Source: Candidatus Krumholzibacteriota bacterium
GTDB lineage: Bacteria > Krumholzibacteriota > Krumholzibacteriia > JAJRXK01
DNA: 64,000 bases
Reading direction: 5' to 3'
NCBI GenBank assembly: GCA_029262065.1
Contig: JAJDAC010000027.1
Span: 248,001-312,000, forward strand
The notes beneath the pieces are model-generated. The model saw only the letters and a program-made list of their open reading frames with translations, searched no databases and was not told the origin of the DNA. Below, piece by piece: positions 1 through 25,445 of the stretch. The translations under genes and the position numbers were made by a program. Position 1 is the stretch's first letter. The number at the start of each line of letters is the position of its first letter.

Positions 1-2
1 CA

Positions 3-344
3 GCGGGCAACCAAAGCGGTACGTTGGCCTACCCCGCATCGAGCCAGCACACCGTCGCGGTGGCGGCCGCCGATGATGGTGGTGTCTTGGCCTGGTTCTC
101 GGGCTTTGGCGGCGCCGACGTGGCGGCTCCAGGCGTCGGGTTGGTCAGCGCCTTCCCCGGCAACGACTCGGCTATCGGCAGTGGTACCTCGATGGCTTGC
201 GCCGTGGCCACCGGAACCCTGGCATTGCAGGGCGAAGATCTCGACCAAGGGTTGGACGCCTTGTACGCGACCGCTGCGTCGATTCATACCGGCGTGACGT
301 TCGGCCTGGTCGACCCTGTGGCCGCGCTTGCGTACCAACCGTAG
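3..344 (+). CDS. Subtilisin-like serine protease (S8), C-terminal part
   Basis: Only the last 113 residues are inside the window; the gene enters from the left edge. The visible part shows the second half of a subtilase fold: a GNQSG segment, a VAVAAAD strand, the DVAAPG block and the nucleophile block GSGTSMACA, whose Ser is the S8 catalytic serine. It ends soon after, with no cell-wall anchor or extra C-terminal domain. The Asp and His blocks are outside the window, so activity cannot be judged. It converges on the CHAT protease gene with 5 bases between the stop codons. Because a CHAT/subtilase pairing recurs at 19-24 kb, it may be functionally linked to that gene; this is inference. Confidence 0.88.
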   Translation, partial: AGNQSGTLAYPASSQHTVAVAAADDGGVLAWFSGFGGADVAAPGVGLVSAFPGNDSAIGSGTSMACAVATGTLALQGEDLDQGLDALYATAASIHTGVTFGLVDPVAALAYQP

Positions 345-349
345 AGCGT

Positions 350-3076
350 TCAGGCCACTACGATAAACGGTGCCCATGCGAAGGGATGAGGAAACTTCTT
401 CCTCGTCTCTCGCATGGCCACCGTGATCGCGCTGGCCGCGACCCGGTCGGTGGCCCACTGAGCGTAGAAACGATCGGTGAAGAACGAAGCGGGTGCGTCA
501 TCCAATTTCCACAGGCTCAAAACCATTTCGCGCGCGCCGGCTACCATGCCGGCCGTCATCCAGCTGTCCACCTCGGCACCGGCCGCCGGCGTGGCGGCTG
601 AATCACACGTGCCGAAAAAGATCAGTGAGCCGCGAAGATGCTTGCGCTCGAGATGTTCCAGGCCCAACCAACCGTCACGCAATCGCAGGCCCGTGAGAAA
701 CCAATGTCGCTGATTGGACGAACCGTGCGCGGACAGATGCAACACGGCCAGCTCGTCATTCGACTCCAGAAGCAGCGCCCGTTCGTCACTGGCCTCCACC
801 TGCAACCCCATGTCCCCCAGATGACCTTGAACGTTCTTCAACTCCCGGGCTGACGCAGCCGTAGTGCCTCCCAACAGGACAGCTGAACTCGCACGTCGGC
901 GGCCCGTCGATGTACTCAGCGGACCACGCGACACGCAGTGTCGCGGCGTATCCTCGCCAACCAAGGGAAGCGCCTCGAAGGGAATGCGGCAGACTTCGCC
1001 CGTGGGCACAACCCGGACACGGCCACGGGGAAGCTCCAGCGGATCCCACAATGCTTCGCGCACGGTGATCAGGGCTCTCGTCGCCTTGTCGAGGGTACGC
1101 GTCATCAGCAAGGCCCGGCGTTCGCGGGGCGCCGCGGCAATGGCCTCAAACAATATTTGCAACGATGACCACGGTCCCTGCAACACATCAGACGCGCGAT
1201 CCAACGGGACCCAACGCGGGGCGCGACCCGGTTCGACCACGAACGCGCCCCAACCGTCGCTGGTCTGTTCGAAGAACACGGTGGGCATATCGCCCGTCCA
1301 GTCGGTGGTACCCACGGGAAGGCCGGCGCGGCGCGCGATCCGCGTGAGGCCCGATGTAGCTTTGCGCATGCGTTGTTCCAGGTCGGCCGCCTGTTGCCGT
1401 AGGGCATTGGTGCGGTCGCGATTTGGAACGGAGTCAGCCAGCGACAGCTCCTCGCGAATCTGACTCAGCGCGGTTTCAATTTCAGGAACACCGGTCTCGC
1501 GCCGGGCCGCGAGCAGGGAGTCGGTAAGCAGATGTGAACGAAATTTGAGAACGGCCTCGAGCGTGCGTTTTACGGCCGGCGACGATTTATCTCGTAGCTG
1601 CACGGCGAGAACACCCTGGAGCAACGACCGGTTGGCCATGGGCAAATGCTGGCCCGCCAACGATTGCCCAAACCTCTCACGCACCGCTTCGAACTCGGTC
1701 AGGGCGCGTTGGCTCCAGCGCCGGGCCCGATCTGCTTTTCCCGCCTGGGAGTTGGTACGGGCGAGCAACAGCGCGATCTGGGGCCGCTGGTTGATTGCGG
1801 GATACGCGCGGGCATCCCGCCACGCCACTTCGGCCAGACGCCGCGACCACCCCAGGCGACCCTGGTCGAACATTGCACGGGCGCGAAGCAAACGTGCCTG
1901 TGCGCCCAACCCGTGACGGTCGCTACGATCCAGTTGACGCTGCGCTCGCCGCAGAATTCTCTGGGCTTCCGCCGGCCGCGCGCGCGACAGATGAAGCTCC
2001 GCCAGCGAGACGTCGATCCGATGCAGTGCCCATCGGTTGCCGTGCTCGGTAAAATGGGCCCGCGTCTCGCTCAACTCGGTGTGGGCGTCGATCAGTCGTC
2101 CGGCATCGACCAACAGTCGCCCACGCTGGTGCGCAGCCAGGGCCGCCGAATGCACCAGGCCCAGCGCACGGTAGGTGTCTCGCGCCGCGGTCGCCGATTC
2201 CAATGCCGCTTCGTTCTCCCCTACACTGGCCAGCAGTTGCGCCAATTCGCGCTCGATCGCCGCTACCGTGCTCTTGTCACCCAACTGCGCCAACTGGTTG
2301 CGAAGCTCCTGGAAGGTATGGAGGGCCTGCTCCCAGGATCCACGTAGAAGCAGCACCGCGGCCAACCCGAACTGCACCTGGAGTACGGCCGACTGAAAAC
2401 CCCGGCCTTCGATCACCGCCAACGATTCGGTGAACTCTGCCTGCGCCGAGTCCGCTCTCCCCAGCCGCAGGTACACCTGTCCCAGGTTGGCCTGGGCCAG
2501 TGCCGCGTCGAGTCTGAGATTCAGTTTCTGGAATCGTTTTGCTGCCTTGCCGTAGGCGCGGGCGGCTTCGTCGAAGCGCCCGGTCAAGTACATTGCGTTG
2601 GCGACATTCACGTCCAACCGCACCCGCGTGGAATGATCCGAGCGGGCGATTCCATCGCGAGCGACAGGAATCAACTCTCGCATACGCCGATAGTCACCGC
2701 AGTGAGCAAGCGATCCTATCCAACCCACGGCGGTACGCGTGCGCTCCTCGGCGCTGTCCTCACGATCAAACAGTTGCCACGCGCGCTCGTAGCGCTTGGC
2801 CGATTCAGAGGCTCGGCCCAGGGACAGCAAGGTGTGCCCATGTAGCCGGGTCAGCCGGGCTACTTCAATAGCGTCGAGATTCTCGGTGGATTCGAGCAAC
2901 CTCTCCACGGCATCCAGGCCGATGGTCGGCGCAATCCGCGCAACGCGAAGGATGGACGTGTAGAAGTGGTCCATGGGCGAGCTGCTGTCGGGCAGCGGCT
3001 TCGCCCATCTATGGAGCAGGTCGGCTCCGGGACGAAGCCTAAGCAGGCGGCGGATCTGCCTCAGATGGTCCGTCAC
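350..3076 (-). CDS. TPR-CHAT caspase-like protease (cluster 1)
   Basis: A 908-residue protein with tetratricopeptide-type helical repeats over roughly residues 40-520, a coiled linker, and a C-terminal CHAT (caspase HetF associated with TPRs) domain. The Cys-His dyad is visible: His784 in LHLSAHGS and Cys824 in FFGTCDSA (numbering from the chosen start). CHAT domains are clan CD cysteine peptidases, often effectors or signalling proteases. No signal peptide, so probably cytoplasmic. The GTG at 3076 is chosen because GGAGG lies 9 bases upstream; an in-frame ATG at 2974 lacks a good ribosome site. It overlaps the end of the zinc-finger gene by 38 bases and is the last gene of a sigma/zinc-finger/CHAT operon. 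The target is unknown. Confidence 0.85.
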   Translation of the reverse strand: MTDHLRQIRRLLRLRPGADLLHRWAKPLPDSSSPMDHFYTSILRVARIAPTIGLDAVERLLESTENLDAIEVARLTRLHGHTLLSLGRASESAKRYERAWQLFDREDSAEERTRTAVGWIGSLAHCGDYRRMRELIPVARDGIARSDHSTRVRLDVNVANAMYLTGRFDEAARAYGKAAKRFQKLNLRLDAALAQANLGQVYLRLGRADSAQAEFTESLAVIEGRGFQSAVLQVQFGLAAVLLLRGSWEQALHTFQELRNQLAQLGDKSTVAAIERELAQLLASVGENEAALESATAARDTYRALGLVHSAALAAHQRGRLLVDAGRLIDAHTELSETRAHFTEHGNRWALHRIDVSLAELHLSRARPAEAQRILRRAQRQLDRSDRHGLGAQARLLRARAMFDQGRLGWSRRLAEVAWRDARAYPAINQRPQIALLLARTNSQAGKADRARRWSQRALTEFEAVRERFGQSLAGQHLPMANRSLLQGVLAVQLRDKSSPAVKRTLEAVLKFRSHLLTDSLLAARRETGVPEIETALSQIREELSLADSVPNRDRTNALRQQAADLEQRMRKATSGLTRIARRAGLPVGTTDWTGDMPTVFFEQTSDGWGAFVVEPGRAPRWVPLDRASDVLQGPWSSLQILFEAIAAAPRERRALLMTRTLDKATRALITVREALWDPLELPRGRVRVVPTGEVCRIPFEALPLVGEDTPRHCVSRGPLSTSTGRRRASSAVLLGGTTAASARELKNVQGHLGDMGLQVEASDERALLLESNDELAVLHLSAHGSSNQRHWFLTGLRLRDGWLGLEHLERKHLRGSLIFFGTCDSAATPAAGAEVDSWMTAGMVAGAREMVLSLWKLDDAPASFFTDRFYAQWATDRVAASAITVAMRETRKKFPHPFAWAPFIVVA

Positions 3077-3665
3077 CGAGTGGATCCTCCAGAACCAGAC
3101 TCTTGCCCGAGGGAAGGTGGATTTCCAGGGTCCATCCCGCGCCAACGACCTGACGGATCACGAACTCTTCGCCGTCACGCGCCGTGGCCAGTTCCAGGAC
3201 GTGGTCGCCGAGCAGCAAAACCAGATTGATCGTAGGATCCGGCGCATCGGTGGTCAGCCAGATGGAGCCCTCGAACGTCCACATTACGTCTGCGGTAGGG
3301 GGCGACACCCGGATGCTGACCTCGGCCTCGGGATCGGACAGGTTGAGCATACGGGGCCCGGACTCGATCGCAAAGTCCACACCTCGAATGTCCTTGGGCC
3401 GCCAGGCGACACGCCTCTTACCCATTGGAAGAGGCGGAACCCGTGAAGGCTGTCTCTGAACGAGGTCGGAAGGAATTCGCTGCACCACACCCGGTAGCGG
3501 AACGCTGACACATTCACGCAAGGCCCGAAGCAGTTCGACCTCTTCGGTGCAAGATGCACAGGAAACCAGATGGTTTGTCAGCGGCTCGGACGCGCCACTG
3601 GTCAGCCATTGTGACCATTGTTCCACCGATGGATGGTCCGACGATTTACGATTGTTCAAAACCAT
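3039..3665 (-). CDS. Zinc-finger anti-sigma-like protein
   Basis: A 208-residue protein. Its N-terminal part has the H-x3-C-x2-C signature of zinc-binding anti-sigma domains (NHLVSCASC, about residues 33-41). The rest is mainly beta-strand with no obvious membrane segment, so if it is an anti-sigma factor it would be a soluble one. The start ATG overlaps the sigma stop codon (TAATG), which implies translational coupling and roughly equal synthesis. Its 3' end overlaps the CHAT gene. The likely role is binding and restraining the preceding ECF sigma; the C-terminal beta-rich region may sense a ligand or contact the CHAT protein. The motif and operon position support the call; the partner is inferred. 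Confidence 0.75.
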   Translation of the reverse strand: MVLNNRKSSDHPSVEQWSQWLTSGASEPLTNHLVSCASCTEEVELLRALRECVSVPLPGVVQRIPSDLVQRQPSRVPPLPMGKRRVAWRPKDIRGVDFAIESGPRMLNLSDPEAEVSIRVSPPTADVMWTFEGSIWLTTDAPDPTINLVLLLGDHVLELATARDGEEFVIRQVVGAGWTLEIHLPSGKSLVLEDPLGDGPSEADPPPA

Positions 3666-4198
3666 TAGTCGAGCTCCTTCATCACTGCCTTCAGGCTCTG
3701 CAAGCAACGCGCGCGTGCGGAGCCAATACTGCCGATCGCCAACCCCAACCGTTTCGAGACTTCTTTGTACGAAGCCGAACCCTCCTCCAGAAACAACATT
3801 CCCAGTAGCGCTTGGCATTCTGGCTTGAGCCTATCCAAGGCTCGTCGTGCTAGCGCCTGCCGTTCCAAGGCTTCCAGTTTTTCGTCGGGCAAAGCCCGCT
3901 CGTCGACCAGGTCCGCCGCCGATTCGTTCAGCAGTACACCCTGTTTCGTCGCCAATCGATAGGACAGCCGGCGAGTCGTCACCACCAGCCATCTGGACAT
4001 CGCTCCCGGGTCCGCGATACGACCGATCGAGCGATGCAACTCCAGAAATGTCTCTTGCAGGGCGTCAGTGGCCAGGTCGTAGTCGAGGCCCACGTCCAGA
4101 GCCGCTGAAAGAACCAGGCCGCTGTACCGATCCACCATCTCTTTCCACGCCGCTTCATTGCCCGATAGGCAAAGCTTCACAAGGGTGTAGATGTCCAT
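3665..4198 (-). CDS. ECF-type RNA polymerase sigma factor
   Basis: About 177 residues, the usual ECF size. Region 2 is visible around DLATDALQETFLELHRS and the region 4 helix-turn-helix around YKEVSKRLGLAIGSIGSAR. It should direct RNA polymerase to a small regulon, probably including this operon. The ATG at 4198 is preferred (GGTGG 7 bases upstream); an ATG at 4204 is possible, while the longer reading frame upstream is low-complexity and lacks family similarity. Its stop overlaps the start of the zinc-finger gene. The roughly 650-base leader upstream holds a strong hairpin that may regulate the operon. It is divergent from the cytochrome c gene. Confidence 0.85.
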   Translation of the reverse strand: MDIYTLVKLCLSGNEAAWKEMVDRYSGLVLSAALDVGLDYDLATDALQETFLELHRSIGRIADPGAMSRWLVVTTRRLSYRLATKQGVLLNESAADLVDERALPDEKLEALERQALARRALDRLKPECQALLGMLFLEEGSASYKEVSKRLGLAIGSIGSARARCLQSLKAVMKELD

Positions 4199-4318
4199 CG
4201 ACATGCCACCCTTGCTTCCAGCCACGGGAACTCGGGACGAGTGAGCCCGCACAAGAACCTGAGCCCAACGGGAGTCGAGGGCTTCGGCGGCCTGGAACCG
4301 CCGAGAAGGAGCTTTAAA

Positions 4319-11217: not shown

Positions 11218-11967
11218 ATGGAAACCGAACACGAATACTACTACGGGGTAGACGGGGTACGTTACGGACCCGTCAGCCGTGAAGCTTTGCGGGCACTGTT
11301 GAGCAGCGGTGAGGTATGCCCCGACGACTACATCTGGGACGAAGCACGGGACGACTGGTTCGCGATTTCCAGCTACCCGGAGCTATCGGCCGATGTGGCG
11401 GCCGCGGCCGGCGACGCAGCCACCGCGCCAGCCGACGCGGCGATGTTGGGCTACGACGCCACGGCCGATCACCCTCGACCACTTGCCTTCGAATTGGACT
11501 ACGTAGGATTCGGAACACGCCTGGTTGCGCACGTGATCGATTCGTTCGTGCTCTTCGCACCTGTGCTGCTGTGGTTCTTCGCCGCGCTCGCCCTGACGCC
11601 GGCCACTCTTGAAGAAATGTCCGCGAACCCCGACTTCGGCAACTTGCTCGGTTCACGCACGCCCTCACCCAACGAGCGCCAGTTCATGCTGGTGTTCTGG
11701 GCGGGAACATTCGTTATCGAGTGGCTGTATCGCGGGTTCATGGAGTCTTCGAGCGCCCAGGCGACCCTCGGAAAACAATTCCTGGGTATCGTCGTGGCCA
11801 ACACCGATGGCACGCGACTCACGTTCGGCCGCGCCTCCGTGCGCCACGTGGCCAAACTGGTGTCTCAGCTCACGGCAAACGTGGGTTACCTGTTGATCCT
11901 GTTCACGCCGCGACGGCAAGGCTTGCATGACCTGATCGCCGATACCATCGTGGTACGTCGGAGATAG
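11218..11967 (+). CDS. GYF_2-RDD family membrane protein
   Basis: A 249-residue protein. Residues 1-50 form a GYF_2-like domain (YYYGVDGVRYGPVSREALR and the DYIWDEARDDW strand). This is followed by an Ala-rich linker and an RDD membrane domain with about three helices: VGFGTRLVAHVIDSFVL with the Arg and Asp that give the family its name, a second segment before WLYRGFMESS, and GKQFLGIVVANTDGTRLTF. RDD proteins are of unclear function, some transport-related. The ATG at 11218 follows GAAGAAGG. Its stop codon TAG is contributed by the first unit of the hairpin array that follows, so the repeat begins inside the gene. Confidence 0.85.
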   Translation: METEHEYYYGVDGVRYGPVSREALRALLSSGEVCPDDYIWDEARDDWFAISSYPELSADVAAAAGDAATAPADAAMLGYDATADHPRPLAFELDYVGFGTRLVAHVIDSFVLFAPVLLWFFAALALTPATLEEMSANPDFGNLLGSRTPSPNERQFMLVFWAGTFVIEWLYRGFMESSSAQATLGKQFLGIVVANTDGTRLTFGRASVRHVAKLVSQLTANVGYLLILFTPRRQGLHDLIADTIVVRRR

Positions 11968-12127
11968 CCTTTGGCTATCGTAGATGACCTTTGGTTACCG
12001 CAGGTAGCCTTCAGGCTGCCGAAGGTGGCCTTTAGGCCATCGGAGATAGCCTTTGGCTATCGTAGATGACCTTTGGTTACCGCAGATAGCCTCTTCAGGC
12101 TGCCGAAGGTGGCCTTTAGGCTACGCC
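11963..12127. repeat. Array of eight tandem ~20-bp hairpin units
   Basis: Eight head-to-tail units of 20-23 bases fill the space between two convergent genes, starting at 11963, 11983, 12003, 12024, 12045, 12065, 12085 and 12108. Each folds on itself, for example GATAGCC-TTT-GGCTATC, GGTAGCC-TTCA-GGCTGCC and GGTGGCC-TTTA-GGCCATC, with a CG-purine-purine style spacer. Units 1-4 are repeated almost exactly as units 5-8 (an ~82-base higher-order repeat). Stem sequences differ between units while most pairs are kept by compensating changes or G-T pairs. The array supplies the stop codons of both flanking genes. No T tract follows, so it is not a standard terminator. Confidence 0.9.
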
Positions 12128-16086: not shown

Positions 16087-17373
<1,287 letters not shown>

Positions 17374-17379
17374 GTTCGC

Positions 17380-19155
17380 TCAATCCGATCGCGCGCCGCG
17401 CACGCGTTCGCTCGCGGTGCGCTGCCAGGGGGATTCGGCGTCGACATCCAGATTCTCGTAGACATCGACCAGCGAGGCCGCCAGTTCGACGTCGCCGCGT
17501 TGTAGAGCCACTTCGATTCTGTTGAACAGCGCGCGGCCGTAGTGACGAGAGTTGCTTGGTACCTGGCTCAGGTATTCATCGGCCCGGCGTAGACGGTCCT
17601 GGCGCTCAACCGCCGCCTGACCCTCCTGTTCGGCCCACTGGAACTCCACGACCGCCAACCCGACCAGCGCGACCGCATCGGCTGGGTCCAGGGCGAGCGC
17701 TGCGGCGTACTCCTGCGAAGCCAACTGCAAACGTCCGCGCGCCAGCTTCAGGTGGCCCAGAGCGTTGAGATAGGCAACCCGTTCGACGACCGACATGTCC
17801 GCGGAGGCGCCCATCTCGCGCCGCAGCTCCCGCTCGGCCACGCGGATCGCGGCGTGCGCCTGGGTTCTCGAAACGTCATCTTCCTCACCGCGCAACCAGC
17901 CGTTGGGTTCGGCGGTGAACTCCTGGGCCAGGCGCAACGGAGCTGAAACCGTCAAAGGAAAATGGAACGAATCGCCGAAGCGAAGCTGGCCAAGCGGACT
18001 CTGAACGGCGTAGGGAGACTCACCGACCAACGACGGACGTAGGGTCAGACCAACGGCGAGCACGACCACCGCGGCCACCGAAAGCAGCGCCCATCGTCGG
18101 GGACGGGACCAAGCGGCCTGGCGGCCAGCACGCCCCCCACGATGGATTGCCGGTTGGGCTACCGATTCGGACTCGAGCCTGGCCATGACGCTGGCCACGC
18201 GGGCATCGTCACGACCGGGGCCTTCGGTCTCGTACATTTTTCGTTCTTCGTCGGACAGCGGCGCGTTCCAGGTATCGAGAACCGTCGCGACCCGCTCACG
18301 ACATTGCGCGCACTGCACCAGGTGCGAAAACTGTCGCGCCCTCGTGTCCTCGTCGATCGCATCGAATACGAACTGTTGTACCTGCTCATCTGATTCGAAG
18401 TGCGAACCGGGATCCTTCGGCCAGGGGCTACCGTCATCGAGCGACGCCGATCGCGCGCCGGGCCCACCCATGTGATCACGGATGATCTTTCGCGCGCGTT
18501 CGACGATTTTTTCCACCTGCTTGACGCGCAATCGTACCGTGGGGATCCCGGCGATCTGGGGCGCGCTGTAGTCGAGCAGGAAATACAGCTGGCAAATGAA
18601 GATATCGCGCGAACAGGTCTCCTTGCCGCTCCAGGTATCAAGCAGCGCCTTCTCGAAACGCTCGCGCGCTTCGGTGCTTTCGTATTGCTTCGATGGACTG
18701 TCGGCGTTGTCGGCACGGTTGTTGAGCACGTCCATGAGTTCTTCGGGGCCCATCGTGGTCATCGGAGGCATGGTGCTTCCATCGGACTTTCGCCGTGCGT
18801 CCAACACGGTATTGAGTACGACCTTCTTCAGATACAGAAACCACTGACCGTCACTGGTGCCTTCGAAGCCACGCAATCCACGGGCGTCATTCCGCAGCAA
18901 GCGCAGCCAGACTTCACCGGCGACGTCCTCGGCTTCGAGGCCGTTTCGTTGCCAACTCCCAAGGCCCACCAGGCAGCGCCGCGCGTACCCCCACGCGTGG
19001 GGGTCGGACCGGCTGACCAGTTCTTCCCACGGGGGACACGGACCCTTACCATCGAGGCAGGCGTCGATGAGTCGTCGAATGGGGAGCCGTTTCGGCACGC
19101 TTTCGGCGCCTCTCGCCGATTCACGATTGCTGGATTCCGCGGCATGCGACCCCAT
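17380..19155 (-). CDS. Sigma-like / zinc-finger / transmembrane / TPR fusion protein (cluster 2)
   Basis: A 591-residue single polypeptide. Residues ~25-230 look like an ECF-type sigma: an acidic region 2 segment (EAEDVAGEVWLRLLRND) and a region 4 helix-turn-helix (YSAPQIAGIPTVRLRVKQVE). Residues 270-290 carry the anti-sigma zinc signature His278-x3-Cys282-x2-Cys285. One hydrophobic helix at 355-373, preceded by RPRR, gives an N-in/C-out topology, and residues ~425-580 form TPR-like repeats predicted to face the periplasm. Sigma and anti-sigma functions are usually separate genes; here they would be tethered together to the membrane. It is transcribed divergently from the CHAT gene with only 42 bases between start codons. 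Confidence 0.78.
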   Translation of the reverse strand: MGSHAAESSNRESARGAESVPKRLPIRRLIDACLDGKGPCPPWEELVSRSDPHAWGYARRCLVGLGSWQRNGLEAEDVAGEVWLRLLRNDARGLRGFEGTSDGQWFLYLKKVVLNTVLDARRKSDGSTMPPMTTMGPEELMDVLNNRADNADSPSKQYESTEARERFEKALLDTWSGKETCSRDIFICQLYFLLDYSAPQIAGIPTVRLRVKQVEKIVERARKIIRDHMGGPGARSASLDDGSPWPKDPGSHFESDEQVQQFVFDAIDEDTRARQFSHLVQCAQCRERVATVLDTWNAPLSDEERKMYETEGPGRDDARVASVMARLESESVAQPAIHRGGRAGRQAAWSRPRRWALLSVAAVVVLAVGLTLRPSLVGESPYAVQSPLGQLRFGDSFHFPLTVSAPLRLAQEFTAEPNGWLRGEEDDVSRTQAHAAIRVAERELRREMGASADMSVVERVAYLNALGHLKLARGRLQLASQEYAAALALDPADAVALVGLAVVEFQWAEQEGQAAVERQDRLRRADEYLSQVPSNSRHYGRALFNRIEVALQRGDVELAASLVDVYENLDVDAESPWQRTASERVRGARSD

Positions 19156-19197
19156 CAGTAGTCACCGCCCCTCTCACGAAATAGGACGAATGCCGGC
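19156..19197. promoter_or_regulatory. 42-base divergent start region between sigma fusion and CHAT gene
   Basis: The two start codons are only 42 bases apart, which is too short for two independent conventional promoters. No standard -35/-10 pair is visible on either strand. At least one promoter must lie inside the opposing coding region, or the two transcripts overlap. This geometry would couple expression of the two genes. Confidence 0.35.
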
Positions 19198-22100
19198 ATG
19201 ATTTCCCCCCGGCCAGGATCGCTGAATCCCGCGAGAGTCGCCCTGACCCTGCTTTTCGTCGTTTCAGTGACGAGTGCGAGTTTGGCCCTGGGCCAGGAGG
19301 GAGCCTCCGGGATCGGTTCGAAGGGCCCCATGATGCCCTCATCCTGGCACACAATGGAGGCAACGTGGGCCGGGGTCGACGCCGAACTGCTGGAGGGCCG
19401 CCTGGACCAGCTTCGCGACTCCCTCTACTCGGGGTCCACCCGCGACGCGCATGCTGCGATACTGCTGGGTCTCCACGTCGGCGAACTGGATGGGGCCGCA
19501 TCTGATCTGGATCTCTGGCTGGAACTCGAACCAACCTCCATGCCCGCACGATTCCTGAACGGTTGTGTGTTGGCATTGAGCGACGCCACGAGCGATCTGA
19601 TCGTCGGCGAAACCGCGCTCCAGTCGGCCCGGGCCCTGTTCGAAGAAACCTGGGTTGCTCCGTTCGATTCGGCGGCTGCTTTCAACGCGGCCTGGACCGC
19701 CAGCCAGTTGGGAAACGCGGCTCCCGCGCGCGCGCTTGCCGCCAATTTGCAAAACAGCCCATCCGCTTGGCTGCCCGAGATTCGTGAGCGGATCTTCGAA
19801 GCCGTCGCCTGGGGCGTGCCGGCTCGCTCGGGACCCTGGCAGACGGAGTTCGCGCGTGCGCGTCACAACGGTGACCGTGATCGGCAACGCGCGCTGGCTC
19901 GCCGGGCGCCACTTCAACTTGCGTACTTGTTGCACTCCCGCCTGGAGTCCACGCCGCGCGCCGAACTCGACGTCGCCGTGGCCTACGTCGACTCGGTCCA
20001 GGCCGAGCTGGCCTGGAGCAACTCCAGGCTGGCGTACGCGCGACGGCACGTTGAGGAACTGCGAGCCCTCGACTTCCAGAGCTACCTGGGCGTGGATGAC
20101 GTGCGACGACGACAAGACGAGGCCCAGGAACGATTCAGATTGGGAGCCTACGAACAGGCCGCGGCGATTCTTCTTCCGGCGCTGCAACGACCGGTGCCCG
20201 TGGGTTACACCATGGACCTGGCACGACAGACCTACCTGCAGGCGGTCGTGCGTCTGGAACGCTTTCCCGAAGCCCATTCCATGTTGAAGTGGATGAGCAA
20301 CGACGTGCGCGACCGGCCCGACCCCGTTACGTCGTACTACTACTGGGACCTGTACATCTGGATGGGCCGTCTCTCGGGCCGTTCGCAGATGGTGCTCGAC
20401 GGAACCGCGGGCATGCAACGGTTGTGTGATCAAACCGGCATCGTCATGGACAACCTGATGGGAGGAATCGCCGACCTCGAATCACAGCTGGAGAATCCCG
20501 CGGGCGCGGACCGCATGTGGCAGGAGGTCTACCGACGCGCGCGCCGCAGCCAGGACCACGACCTTGCGTTGGACGTGTTGATGAACCTGGCCTACCTCGC
20601 GCACGACCAGGACAACGATGAACGCGCGGCCGCACTGCTTCGTATGTTCCTCGCACGGTTCTCCCAGGCACACGGCGACAAAGCCGAGCTGAACGACCGC
20701 CAGAAGCAGAAAATCGAACGCTCTCGGCTTCTCGCCGCGCTGTTGCAAGACCGCTCACCATCTTCTGGTCTTTCGACCGCCTCGACGGTAGCCGACTCGC
20801 TCGAGTCCGCGGGGTCCACACCCGCGGCCGTCGAAGCGCATTTGTTGATTGCACGGGAAGAACTACAACACCACCGGCCACGCAAGGCACTGGATCACGC
20901 TGAGCAGGCGCACCGGCTGGCGTTGGACAAGGATGTGCAACATTTCACGTGGCGTGCGTTGGCCACCAAAGCTGAAGCACTGCACACCATGGGCGAGCTG
21001 GAGCAGGCGGTCATAGCCTATGCCACGGCGCTCGATGACATCCAACGCACCAACGCGACGGTAAGCGATGATGCCATCCGGGCGCGGCGCTTTCTTTCGG
21101 TCCGTAAGGCCGTAGACGGCTACGTGGATGTTCTGATCGACCTGGAACGAACCCAGGCCGCGTTCGCGGTCGACGAACAAGATCGGATGTGGCGCCGAAA
21201 AGCGGATGGTACCACCAGCGTGGATCCCGTACGCGACCTCCAGAAGGTAATGCCCAGCGGCGAGGCCGTAGTGAAATATCGCGTCCAACCATCGGGTATC
21301 CACGCCTGGTGGGTTACGCGAAAGAAGACCGACTACGCGTGGATCGAGGCGCCGAGAACCGAGCTGATTCGCCTGACCCGCGCCGTCCGGCGAGAGCTGG
21401 ATGGCACCGACACCGTCCGCCGTACCGAACTCTTTGACTTGCTCCTGGGGCAATTCGCCCACGAGCTCGATTCGGTTCGAATCCTATGCTTTGTCGAAGA
21501 CGACGTTCTGGTGCGCGTTCCGTTCGCCATGCTGGGACAGGAGCCATTGGTCCAGCGTCACACGGTGATCCACGCGCCGACCGCCGGCGCCCGCCGCCTC
21601 CAGCTGGCTCACGCCGAACGAAACCGGCGTGGGATTCTGGCCGTGGGTCACAACGGCGGGCCAAACCCGCCCGATGGACTCCCCGTGCTTGCATTCGCCG
21701 AGAAAGAGGCCCGACGAGTAGGCGGCATCGACGCAAACACACTCATTGGCAATTCGGCCACCGTGACCAACATCCGCGATCATTCGGTTCGGGCTTCCAT
21801 TCTTCATTTCGCCTGCCATGCCGGTTTCGACGCTCTGGGAAACCCCTTCCTGGTGCTGGCCGGCGAAGATGGACTTCCCACCAAGATCTACGACTACGAC
21901 ATGGCCGACTGGAGTCTCGCGGGAGACCTCGTGGTTCTGTCGGCCTGCGAAACCGCCATCAAGAGACTGCCCGGGCCGCAAACCGAGGGTCCCAGCGGAG
22001 AACTCGGCGGTCTCGTCTCGGCTTTCTTCGATCTGAGCGCGAAGGCGGTGCTGGCTACCCTGTGGAGCGTGGAAGACTCGGACGTTTTCATGCGGAAATT

Positions 22101-22233
22101 CTACGAGAACCTTACTTCCAGTAGCTCGGCCGCCGAGACCCTGCGTCGCACCCAGGTTCATTTTCTTACCAAGAACACGACACCTACCCTATCGAAGCTT
22201 CAACTTGGCGCGTATCGCTGCTACGGTGAGTAA
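19198..22233 (+). CDS. Exported TPR-CHAT caspase-like protease (cluster 2)
   Basis: A 1011-residue protein. Residues 1-33 look like a Sec signal peptide (hydrophobic core VALTLLFVVSVTSASLALG then Q). A long helical TPR-type region covers roughly residues 60-640. The CHAT domain occupies about the last 330 residues with the dyad His874 (LHFACHAGF) and Cys917 (VVLSACETA), followed by GLVSAFFDLSAKAVLATLW, a standard CHAT block. Unlike the cluster 1 protein it should act in the periplasm, on the same side as the predicted TPR domain of the divergent sigma fusion. It is followed by an unknown gene and a subtilase, probably one operon. Confidence 0.85.
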   Translation: MISPRPGSLNPARVALTLLFVVSVTSASLALGQEGASGIGSKGPMMPSSWHTMEATWAGVDAELLEGRLDQLRDSLYSGSTRDAHAAILLGLHVGELDGAASDLDLWLELEPTSMPARFLNGCVLALSDATSDLIVGETALQSARALFEETWVAPFDSAAAFNAAWTASQLGNAAPARALAANLQNSPSAWLPEIRERIFEAVAWGVPARSGPWQTEFARARHNGDRDRQRALARRAPLQLAYLLHSRLESTPRAELDVAVAYVDSVQAELAWSNSRLAYARRHVEELRALDFQSYLGVDDVRRRQDEAQERFRLGAYEQAAAILLPALQRPVPVGYTMDLARQTYLQAVVRLERFPEAHSMLKWMSNDVRDRPDPVTSYYYWDLYIWMGRLSGRSQMVLDGTAGMQRLCDQTGIVMDNLMGGIADLESQLENPAGADRMWQEVYRRARRSQDHDLALDVLMNLAYLAHDQDNDERAAALLRMFLARFSQAHGDKAELNDRQKQKIERSRLLAALLQDRSPSSGLSTASTVADSLESAGSTPAAVEAHLLIAREELQHHRPRKALDHAEQAHRLALDKDVQHFTWRALATKAEALHTMGELEQAVIAYATALDDIQRTNATVSDDAIRARRFLSVRKAVDGYVDVLIDLERTQAAFAVDEQDRMWRRKADGTTSVDPVRDLQKVMPSGEAVVKYRVQPSGIHAWWVTRKKTDYAWIEAPRTELIRLTRAVRRELDGTDTVRRTELFDLLLGQFAHELDSVRILCFVEDDVLVRVPFAMLGQEPLVQRHTVIHAPTAGARRLQLAHAERNRRGILAVGHNGGPNPPDGLPVLAFAEKEARRVGGIDANTLIGNSATVTNIRDHSVRASILHFACHAGFDALGNPFLVLAGEDGLPTKIYDYDMADWSLAGDLVVLSACETAIKRLPGPQTEGPSGELGGLVSAFFDLSAKAVLATLWSVEDSDVFMRKFYENLTSSSSAAETLRRTQVHFLTKNTTPTLSKLQLGAYRCYGE

Positions 22234-22264
22234 CATTCACGCCCCAACGGTAAGGAATGGTCCC

Positions 22265-22846
22265 ATGGCGCCGCCCATCGTCTCGGTAGAAGTAGGCATT
22301 TTCTCGATCATGCAGCTCGATGCTTTCGGCAAGCTCGGGCTGTCACAAAAACCGGACGCTTCGAAGCAGGCACTTGTTCTCCTGAACGACGCCGCCGATT
22401 GCGAATACGTGATCAATGGCAACTCGGGGAGTCCAATCAGGCCCAAAGGCGGTGAGGAGCACATGATTCTCATCGCCTGCGACCCGGCCGTCGATCCGAC
22501 CCGGCGTAGCCATGCCTACCCTCGGCGGTTATTCTGTTTCAATAGCGGATCGTTCATGTGGCCCGGGCTCATGTATCGCTCGCCGGGTGCGCCGGGGTCC
22601 ACCGGACCATTCGAGACCGCGCTGGTAATAATGACCGACAATCTCGAATGGAAGTCGCATAGCGTGGACGGGCGCTTGTTGTCCGAGTTCAGATTGCCGG
22701 CTCCGTGTCATTTGTACCAGGTGACGGCCGGCACCCCGGGTGACCTCGAAAAAGAAGTGAAAGAATTCGGGGCCGTTGCGAGCATCGATGTGAAGTTCAC
22801 GGGCATGGCCCAAGGCCAATGTGCCAGCTCTGCGTACCCGCCCTGA
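22265..22846 (+). CDS. Unknown protein between CHAT protease and subtilase
   Basis: A 193-residue protein I do not recognise. It has no signal peptide, membrane span or repeats; the pattern suggests mixed alpha/beta, with predicted strands IVSVEVGIFSI, HMILIACD, RRLFCFN and FETALVIMTDN, and a helix DLEKEVKEFGAV. Four cysteines are scattered. The ATG at 22265 is chosen because AAGGA precedes it and it clears the end of the CHAT gene by 31 bases; an overlapping TTG start at 22205 exists. Its position between two protease-related genes makes it a candidate substrate, adaptor or inhibitor; this is inference from neighbourhood only. Confidence 0.6.
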   Translation: MAPPIVSVEVGIFSIMQLDAFGKLGLSQKPDASKQALVLLNDAADCEYVINGNSGSPIRPKGGEEHMILIACDPAVDPTRRSHAYPRRLFCFNSGSFMWPGLMYRSPGAPGSTGPFETALVIMTDNLEWKSHSVDGRLLSEFRLPAPCHLYQVTAGTPGDLEKEVKEFGAVASIDVKFTGMAQGQCASSAYPP

Positions 22847-22897
22847 TCAGTTGGAGTTCACGGATCGCCAAGTGCAACCAGCGGTAGTAGGTGAACA

Positions 22898-23977
22898 GTG
22901 GTCCGCATCGTACAAACGCGAGACGCCACCCAGCCCGCGGCCCAGCCGCGGGTCGCCGTAGTCGAACGTGGGCACCCCGACCTTGATCACGAGATGTTCG
23001 GAATCTGGGATCACCTGGTCGAGGTGGTGGGTGACACTTCGGTGCAGCCGCACCCCACCCGGGTATTGCTGGCGCTATTGGAAGAGTGTCCCGCCGCGGT
23101 GGCCGTGCGTTCAGTCTCGTTGCAACGCGAAGACGGACAGGGGCCGTGGATCGAACAGATCGACCGAGCGATCGCGGCCGGGGTTCACACCCTGAACCTC
23201 AGCATGGGTCTGGATCGCGCACGTCTGGAGAAGACGTGGCCGCTCTGGGAACCTGCGCTGCAACGTTGGGTGACCGATTCTGGCGCCAATATCGTGGCCC
23301 CTTGCGGCAACGCCTCGGCACTGGACAGAAAGACACAGCCGGTAACCTCTCCCGCGTGTTGTTCATCCGTGATCGCGGTCGCCGGCGTGGTTCGTGACGA
23401 CGGGGCGTATCAATCGTTCCCGTGGAATCGATCGCTGCCGCTGGGCACCAACATGGTTTGTGCATTGGCGCAGGATCCCAGCGGGGGGCCCGACGCCACC
23501 TCGTTCGCGGCGCCTCGTATTGCCGGCATGGTGACCGAGATCGTTGAACGCCTCGATGCCAACGACCGGAACCCCGATACCGTGCGGGCTATCTTGCTGG
23601 CATCGGCGCGCAAGGTCGCTCACGATCCTTTCGGCTACTTCGACCCGCCGCAACGCGTAGGACGGAGCCTGGGGGGCGGCCTTCCGAACCGACACCGCAT
23701 GGTTCGATGTATCGAACGTCACCGTTTCCATCGGGGCGATGCGACCCAACCGTTGCCACTGCGCGAACCTCCGCGCGCATCCCACCTGGGTTGGGCGGTT
23801 GGATTGGCGCGAACATCGTGCGACGAAGACGCACCGAAGTTGGTGGCGCGCGTTTCGCAGCGACCCGCTATCCACGGGTACGGTCAACGTGGGTGGCAGA
23901 TGCTCTACGCCCCGCGCAACGCGGAAGTGGAAGTGGTCGGCAACGGCCCTTGGAGTGCGGCCTGGACACCAGTTTGA
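22898..23977 (+). CDS. Subtilase-fold protein with altered catalytic Asp
   Basis: A 359-residue S8-fold protein. The order of subtilase blocks is kept: RVAVVERGHPDLDHE (where the catalytic Asp of the usual D-x-G is Glu23), HPTRVLLAL in place of HGTHVAG (His52 kept), GVHTLNLSMG, the oxyanion segment APCGNAS (Asn138), VIAVAGV, and the nucleophile block DATSFAAPRIAG (Ser202). No signal peptide or propeptide is seen, unlike secreted subtilases. Asp-to-Glu replacement may weaken or abolish activity, so it may be a binding or regulatory pseudo-protease. GTG start with AGG 7 bases upstream. It is the last gene of the CHAT cluster and converges on hisS. Confidence 0.72.
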   Translation: MVRIVQTRDATQPAAQPRVAVVERGHPDLDHEMFGIWDHLVEVVGDTSVQPHPTRVLLALLEECPAAVAVRSVSLQREDGQGPWIEQIDRAIAAGVHTLNLSMGLDRARLEKTWPLWEPALQRWVTDSGANIVAPCGNASALDRKTQPVTSPACCSSVIAVAGVVRDDGAYQSFPWNRSLPLGTNMVCALAQDPSGGPDATSFAAPRIAGMVTEIVERLDANDRNPDTVRAILLASARKVAHDPFGYFDPPQRVGRSLGGGLPNRHRMVRCIERHRFHRGDATQPLPLREPPRASHLGWAVGLARTSCDEDAPKLVARVSQRPAIHGYGQRGWQMLYAPRNAEVEVVGNGPWSAAWTPV

Positions 23978-24017
23978 TTTGGAGAGTCGGTCGGGCTCGA
24001 CGAGCCATGCGTCCGGC

Positions 24018-25445
24018 TCAGTCACGTCCCAGCAGTTGACGCAGCCGCGCCAATAGTTCGGTTCGTGGTAATTCGAACTGACCGGGGCGTTCTTCGACCC
24101 ACTGGGCGCGATCCTCAACGTCGGTCGAAGCTTCTTTGCCGGCTTCGAGATCCTTGACGGTCACGATGCCGCTTTCCAGTTCGTCTGAGCCCACGATGAC
24201 CGCGAAGGGGATTCCCCATTCGCTCGCGTATCGCAGCTGATCGCCCAGTCTCGCCTTGGGTTTCAGGAAAACTTCGGCGTTCAGGCCACCCTGACGTAGT
24301 TCCCTCACCAGTTCGAGATAGTGGGGCGTGAGCTTCTTGTCCATGGTGGTGACCAGAACATCGGTAACCGTGCCGCGCCGGCGCTCGCCACTCAGCTCGT
24401 CCAGCGCGGCTAGCAGGCGATCGACCCCGATGGAGGCTCCCGTGGCGGGCAACTGCTCACCAGAGAAGCGAGACACCAACTGATTGTACCTTCCGCCGCC
24501 CATGATGCTGCCGTACGCAGGAAGCGCGTCGAGGGACGCTTCGAAGATGGGGCCCGTGTAGTAGTCCATGCCGCGCGCAAGACGGGGTTCGAACTTGATT
24601 CGGTCACAGACGGCAGCCTCGGTCGACAGAAACTGGCGCAGCTCGGCGACCTCGCGCAACGCGTCGGCCGAGCCCTTCACGTCGCCCAGCAATTCGACCA
24701 CCTTGGCCACGAGCGCGTCGTCGGTATCGGCCGAGATCTGCAGAAACTCGACGATGCCGTCGATCTGTTCCCGCGGTAGACCCAGCCCGTCGATCTTGGC
24801 GCCCGACTCGGCGTCGATGCGTCCCGGGCCCAGCTCGGCCCGCACTCCCTCGGCTCCGATCTTGTCTTCCTTGTCGATGACCCGAATGACCGGAGTAGCC
24901 ATGTCGTCAGGCACACCGGCCCGCGTCAACGCTGCGTTGAGCACGCCTCGGTGGTTCCAACGAATGGTGTAGTCGGGTAACCCCAACTCGGCGAGTACCG
25001 TGCCCATGGCCACCACGATTTCGGCGTCGGCCATCATGGATGGGGTTCCCACCACGTCGATATCGAACTGATGGAACTCGCGGAATCGGCCCGCGCCTGG
25101 TTTGTCGACGCGGAACACCGGGCCCGTCTGGTAGCGCTTGAACGGCCGGCGCAACTCGCGATTGCCGGCGACGAAGCGGGCCAGAGGCACCGTGAGGTCA
25201 AACCGCAGCCCCAGATGGACATCGTCTTCGGCCATATGCCACGTGTAGATACGCTGCCCGGTCTCGCCCGCTTTCACGCCGGTGAGCGTCTGCTCGTATT
25301 CGACGACGGGGGTTTCCAATGGCTGGAAACCGAAGCGTTCGAAGACGCGGCGAGCGGTCTGGATCAGGTCGTGACGCCGCGCCACGGCCGCGCCGACCTG
25401 ATCGCGCATGCCCTTGACCAGTTTTGGTTGGATGCGTTGCGCCAT
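24018..25445 (-). CDS. hisS: Histidyl-tRNA synthetase, non-E. coli type
   Basis: A 475-residue class II aminoacyl-tRNA synthetase charging tRNA-His. Motif 2 region reads GPVFRVDKPGAGRFREFHQF and the preceding block is LRFDLTVPLARF rather than the LRPEGT common in most bacterial enzymes; this pattern resembles the alphaproteobacterial and eukaryote-like group. A longer middle segment (IDKEDKIGAEG...) is also typical of that group. The C-terminal anticodon-binding domain follows (TDVLVTTMDKKLTPHYLELVREL and QLRYASEWGIPFAVIVGSDE). The tRNA-His gene lies 45 bases upstream on the same strand, so enzyme and substrate are probably co-transcribed and co-inherited. Confidence 0.95.
   Translation of the reverse strand: MAQRIQPKLVKGMRDQVGAAVARRHDLIQTARRVFERFGFQPLETPVVEYEQTLTGVKAGETGQRIYTWHMAEDDVHLGLRFDLTVPLARFVAGNRELRRPFKRYQTGPVFRVDKPGAGRFREFHQFDIDVVGTPSMMADAEIVVAMGTVLAELGLPDYTIRWNHRGVLNAALTRAGVPDDMATPVIRVIDKEDKIGAEGVRAELGPGRIDAESGAKIDGLGLPREQIDGIVEFLQISADTDDALVAKVVELLGDVKGSADALREVAELRQFLSTEAAVCDRIKFEPRLARGMDYYTGPIFEASLDALPAYGSIMGGGRYNQLVSRFSGEQLPATGASIGVDRLLAALDELSGERRRGTVTDVLVTTMDKKLTPHYLELVRELRQGGLNAEVFLKPKARLGDQLRYASEWGIPFAVIVGSDELESGIVTVKDLEAGKEASTDVEDRAQWVEERPGQFELPRTELLARLRQLLGRD

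Follow-up and report, generated by a model that had tools for sequence, protein, structure and literature searches.

The four genes described here lie at 17380-23977 of the window, by which is meant the whole stretch of 64,000 nucleotides of Candidatus Krumholzibacteriota DNA that was analysed and whose numbering is used throughout; the assembly carrying it amounts to 5.77 Mb in 59 contigs. The layout read in an earlier note on this DNA is confirmed, with a fusion protein (P1) encoded divergently from an exported TPR-CHAT protease (P2), itself followed by an orphan protein (P3) and an S8-fold protein (P4) (Table 1). Gene starts, signal peptides and transmembrane (TM) segments are heuristic calls. 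A scan of 17200-24200 revealed no sigma-70 consensus promoter, and no plasmid relatives were found. Elsewhere in the window, imperfect direct repeats with a spacing of 20-84 nt occur between two genes at 11958-12121.

Table 1. Coordinates of the main locus and of the second ECF/CHAT/S8 set (L112) in the window
Feature	Position	Strand	Remarks
P1	17380..19155	-	591 aa, one polypeptide: ECF sigma, anti-sigma/zinc finger, TM, TPR
Intergenic region separating the divergent P1 and P2 genes	19156..19197	.	42 bp
P2, exported TPR-CHAT protease, His874/Cys917	19198..22233	+	1011 aa; PF12770 E 6.6e-31
P3, orphan protein, no signal peptide	22265..22846	+	193 aa from ATG 22265; ORF from TTG 22205
P4, S8-fold protein, no signal peptide	22898..23977	+	Glu23 for catalytic Asp; His52, Asn138, Ser202 kept
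S8 protease, C-terminal end, L112 set	1..344	+	Whole gene G000:C27:247214-248344
TPR-CHAT, L112 set	350..2974	-	874 aa, no signal peptide
Soluble zinc-finger putative anti-sigma, L112 set	3042..3665	-	HLVSCASC; start unsettled
ECF sigma, L112 set	3665..4204	-	

Residues 44-228 of P1 match the sigma70-ECF model TIGR02937 with 43.6 bits for a cut-off of 42.9 (profile positions 4-164), which places the protein in the ECF family and shows that its N-terminal region scores as a sigma domain, as the earlier note required; Pfam sigma region 2 alone scores 19.1, under the cut-off of 24, and region 4 was not detected by Pfam. The following part, at residues 260-371, matches the anti-sigma model NF052375 with 30.5 bits, far under the cut-off of 100, and the polypeptide further displays a HLVQCAQC zinc-finger motif (residues 278-285), a single TM segment (354-372) and, at about 461-566, weak matches to TPR. 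According to the positive-inside rule, P1 is predicted to have its N-terminus inside and its C-terminus outside, as are most of its unfused counterparts. AlphaFold models of P1 and P3, derived from two-row alignments, were of low confidence and were set aside.

Profile-profile comparison (hhalign) relates each half of P1 to a different set of proteins found beside CHAT genes in the phylum. Residues 1-236 align with the unfused CHAT-linked ECFs (prob 97.6, E 2.7e-12), and residues 237-591 with the unfused membrane anti-sigmas (prob 87.6, E 3.5e-6) over 227 columns spanning the finger, the TM segment and the TPR, while the swapped controls stay below 0.5%. Judged by its sequence, P1 fuses a sigma factor to a TPR-bearing membrane anti-sigma, two proteins that are encoded by separate, overlapping genes in sister loci (L086, L088 and L110), and the joining of both partners in one polypeptide suggests that they work together. 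The anti-sigma parts of several loci (L004:10625-12301, L110, L150, L160 and L161) are devoid of zinc-binding Cys.

P2 is composed of an N-terminal hydrophobic signal, a TPR part and a CHAT domain, the latter recognised by PF12770 with 108.3 bits for a cut-off of 24. Its H874 and C917 align with almost invariant columns of 95 CHAT domains, among which the His is kept in 92 and the Cys in 94. P3 matched no Pfam or NCBIfam family and had no significant match among solved structures; its start is likelier at 22265 than at the upstream TTG, its profile matches only this locus and that of a second genus, and its model (pLDDT 40.7), tentatively beta-rich, is too low in confidence to rely on. P4 has the S8 fold (Peptidase_S8, 45.4 bits for a cut-off of 21.8) and its counterparts in the PDB are subtilisins and cyanobactin-type proteases. 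The degenerate subtilase announced by the earlier note is indeed present, as the Asp-His-Ser triad of P4 is incomplete, Glu having replaced the catalytic Asp. The accompanying suggestion that this protein might cleave the TPR-TM part of P1 is not supported, P4 being predicted to be cytosolic and its active site being altered. A search for known defence systems with PADLOC gave only weak generic subtilase/IetS matches, to P4, and this affiliation was rejected.

Conservation of the four-gene set

A second genus of the same family has all four genes, with order and orientations unchanged, at identities of 34% for P1, 29% for P2, 27% for P3 and 34% for P4. Conservation of the neighbourhood in another genome, which had been set as a test, is thereby established, and the maintenance of the same four genes in a second genus indicates that the locus is more than a chance assembly. 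P2 and the CHAT of the second genus are sisters in the CHAT tree (support 100/97), and the dyad is intact in both. The zinc ligands are missing from the second-genus P1, and the corresponding S8 protein retains Asp, His and Ser, with Gln instead of Asn at the oxyanion position.

The set is conserved but rare. It was retrieved in only one of the 387 searched genomes besides the window's own, a profile built from the two P1 sequences and run against 80 genomes of the phylum and the 387 relatives added none to these two, and a scan of genome contigs with the fusion P1 recovered the second genus only. The fusion, P3 and the P4-type S8 thus occur together in two loci only.

ECF, anti-sigma and CHAT genes in Krumholzibacteriota

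The wider context of the locus was derived from CHAT loci drawn from the top-scoring matches, whose neighbourhoods were annotated by means of profiles and a purpose-written gene caller, in genomes that are mostly fragmented assemblies. An ECF gene lies within three genes of the CHAT in 57 of the 95 loci of the phylum (53/91 without four loci fetched for linkage). The 38 remaining loci, some of them on contigs that end early, display no ECF within this distance, suggesting that CHAT proteins have other roles too. The genome carrying the window is rich in both families, with 75 ECF-type and 26 CHAT matches in 5.77 Mb, and 12 of the 21 CHATs examined there are located at most 5.5 kb from an ECF, where 3.1 would be expected (P about 1e-5), a ratio that becomes 11/20 when the window locus, counted among the 12, is left out. 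One further candidate CHAT locus, L187, was excluded after its sequence had been read.

Two main kinds of loci were distinguished according to the partner of the ECF, either a small membrane protein or a membrane Ser/Thr kinase with DUF4384. The small membrane partners often display HxxxCxxC together with an ectodomain that is TPR or beta-rich, and loci of this first kind frequently have a divergent CHAT gene, as the window locus does. Sister loci of this kind (among others L086, L088, L110, L150 and L160) have the same three functional parts as the window locus and many of them share its divergent order; they differ from it by sigma and anti-sigma genes that are separate and often overlapping, and by the absence of P3 and P4. 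The window locus is a rare variant of this sigma, inhibitor and CHAT-protease module, which is common in the phylum. As for the second kind, operons of an ECF, a membrane Ser/Thr kinase and a TPR-CHAT were observed at L075, L078, L081, L087, L101 and L169. The partners of 540-595 aa at the first five of these loci were considered as anti-sigmas and rejected, Pfam identifying all five as Ser/Thr kinases with DUF4384, this domain being located after the TM segment.

The predicted location of the CHAT protease follows that of its partner. Compartments were assigned by hydropathy with extended gene starts, and a partner with a TM segment is paired with a signal-peptide CHAT in 35 of 36 scorable cases, the sole exception (L082) having a signal peptide when read from an upstream GTG. 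Conversely, three soluble partners (L083, L099 and L112) are paired with CHATs that have no signal peptide, and three more partners in which no TM segment was detected (L142, L149 and L168) correspond to truncated or unclear gene calls. The automatic table of partner TM segment against CHAT signal gives a Fisher P of 0.0066. The CHAT is accordingly predicted to share a side of the membrane with the anti-sigma ectodomain, and to be cytosolic where the anti-sigma is soluble.

S8 genes are associated with several of these loci. Sets composed of ECF, zinc-finger anti-sigma, CHAT and S8 genes recur in the genome carrying the window, one of them (L112, G000:C27:247214-252204) occupying the left edge of the window (1-4204), 13 kb from the main locus. 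Four further loci of the phylum (L083, L099, L112 and L113) have an S8 gene beside the ECF and the CHAT, all four S8 proteins having a full triad, and in two unrelated families outside the phylum (L185 and L190) an ECF, a zinc-finger protein, a CHAT and an S8 are encoded in one operon. Among the 27 S8 genes of the window's genome, 12 lie at most 5 kb from an ECF (3.7 expected) and five at most 5 kb from a CHAT (1.2 expected), the latter count being flattered by two CHATs added for linkage. Lipoprotein-like signals are present on the S8 proteins of L083 and L099, and a signal-like N-terminus on that of L190. The window locus, with a CHAT predicted to be exported and an S8 predicted to be cytosolic, reverses the arrangement of L083 and L099, so that one protease may stand on each side of the membrane in both cases, a pointer drawn from few loci. 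In the sigma tree, the L112 ECF groups with the ECFs of other ECF/CHAT/S8 loci and P1 is not placed with those of the other S8-bearing loci; in the CHAT tree, P2 is apart from L083 and L099. Taken together, both trees suggest that the association with S8 proteins may not have had a single origin. The zinc-finger proteins at L185:9470-10162 and at 3042-3665 of the window have in common a C-terminal domain, GxGWTLExHLPxGxxLxLEDP, possibly serving in sensing or binding.

Described systems and candidate mechanism

Three described systems resemble parts of the locus. Like P1, the ECF48, ECF52 and ECF53 groups and IutY (ECF243) join a sigma factor, a (zinc-finger) anti-sigma and a TM segment in one polypeptide, and P1 has the C-terminal zinc-finger anti-sigma part and TM segment that characterise the ECF48/52/53 type. 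It differs from all of them by its TPR ectodomain, its divergent CHAT protease gene and its occurrence in a different phylum. Release by proteolysis has been shown for IutY, whose sigma factor is fused to a membrane anti-sigma (PMC8999054). ECF54 shares with the window locus an ECF with CHAT and subtilase neighbours, and proteolytic control has been proposed for it because carboxypeptidase, subtilase and CHAT genes adjoin (PMC8999054, with reference to Huang 2015 and Casas-Pastor 2021). By the same description, ECF54 is without an anti-sigma and has a carboxypeptidase neighbour, whereas the anti-sigma of the window locus is fused to the sigma factor in the membrane-tethered P1, and no carboxypeptidase gene was noticed at the locus. 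The CASP/Craspase system of type III-E CRISPR (Csx29, Csx30 and CASP-sigma) likewise gathers a TPR-CHAT, an ECF-like sigma and an inhibitor in one locus, in which the protease Csx29 acts by cleaving the sigma factor's inhibitor (PMC10028731). The window locus differs from it by the export of its CHAT and the fusion of its inhibitor to the sigma factor, and its membership in type III-E was rejected, P2 reaching 18.5 bits for a Csx29 cut-off of 300 and no CRISPR-like repeat array being found in positions 1-32000 of the window.

The earlier note had regarded the combination of genes as little described. This assessment stands for the fused, TPR-bearing and CHAT-paired form, which, together with the phylum-wide match of compartments, is all that appears new. 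It does not stand for the underlying idea: proteolytic control with CHAT and subtilase neighbours had been proposed for ECF54 (PMC8999054), so that the note independently restated a published proposal made for another group, and the module itself is common in the phylum. No study of this module of CHAT and sigma factor was found in the open-licence literature.

The reading that we tentatively favour, while regarding it as far from assured, is that of a membrane-tethered ECF sigma/anti-sigma fusion provided with its own protease set, in which the exported CHAT would act on the ectodomain of P1 and thereby start the release of the sigma factor. It rests on the domain make-up, the fusion of the partners, the conservation of the locus, the co-location of CHAT and ECF genes, the intact dyad and the predicted match of compartments, and it has precedents in Csx29 and IutY. 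In particular, the fusion in P1, the export of the CHAT to the TPR side and the near-invariance of the dyad lend indirect support to the release by proteolysis put forward in the earlier note. We infer the cleavage, the direction of the signal, the roles of P3 and P4 and the autoregulation as follows. P1 would keep its sigma domain at the cytoplasmic surface of the membrane, beside the inhibitory domain, with the TPR domain outside, on the same side as the exported P2. The TPR part of P2 would sense a signal, either the envelope state or a ligand, upon which P2 would cut the P1 ectodomain or act on it conformationally. A cytosolic step, carried out by P4, perhaps with P3 as adaptor, or else by housekeeping proteases (RseP/ClpXP, for example), would then liberate the sigma domain. 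Once free, this domain may turn on the divergent operon by way of the 42 bp between the two genes. Against this reading count the 38 CHAT loci that have no ECF within three genes, the missing zinc ligands of the second-genus P1, the changed active site of P4, the low-confidence models of P1 and P3 and the restriction of the set to two loci.

The main alternative, which we consider rather unlikely, reverses the order of events: the tethered sigma factor, freed by housekeeping proteases, would switch on the CHAT and the S8 as neighbouring effector proteases, both being outputs of the system. Many ECF sigma factors activate adjoining genes, the divergent order around the 42-bp region suits co-regulation, and at several loci the CHAT lies upstream of the ECF in one operon; the matching of CHAT export to membrane or soluble anti-sigmas and the precedent of Csx29 fit a direct link better. 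It is improbable that the CHAT acts without cutting P1, its TPRs serving as a sensor or scaffold bound to the TPR half of P1, with its protease aimed at another substrate. The TPR parts of both proteins are predicted on the same side, and the ectodomains of other sister loci are beta-rich rather than TPR and may be ligand sensors, all of which such binding would accommodate, but the dyad is nearly invariant over the 95 CHAT domains. Least probable of all, the sigma-CHAT pairs would be real and P3 and P4 unrelated passengers, as their occurrence in two genomes only would allow, against which stand the gene order kept at 27-34% identity, the excess of S8 genes near ECF and CHAT genes in the window's genome and the S8 genes beside ECF and CHAT at L083, L099, L112 and L113 and in the two unrelated families (L185 and L190).

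Extending the favoured reading beyond this locus, TPR-CHAT proteins could as a class be the activating proteases of ECF sigma/anti-sigma pairs in several phyla, a generalisation that we hold to be doubtful; Csx29, Csx30 and CASP-sigma would then represent such a module placed under RNA control, and the window locus a variant with sigma factor, inhibitor and sensor in one membrane protein. For the role of CHAT proteases outside CRISPR, the phylum gives a concrete and testable answer, sigma switching, based on the presence of an ECF, usually with an anti-sigma, near over half of the CHAT genes surveyed, on the matching predicted compartments and on the near-invariant dyad. The fused P1 constitutes a convenient substrate in this respect, as cleavage and sigma release would be read on one polypeptide, and the set makes protease-driven sigma activation testable outside CRISPR.
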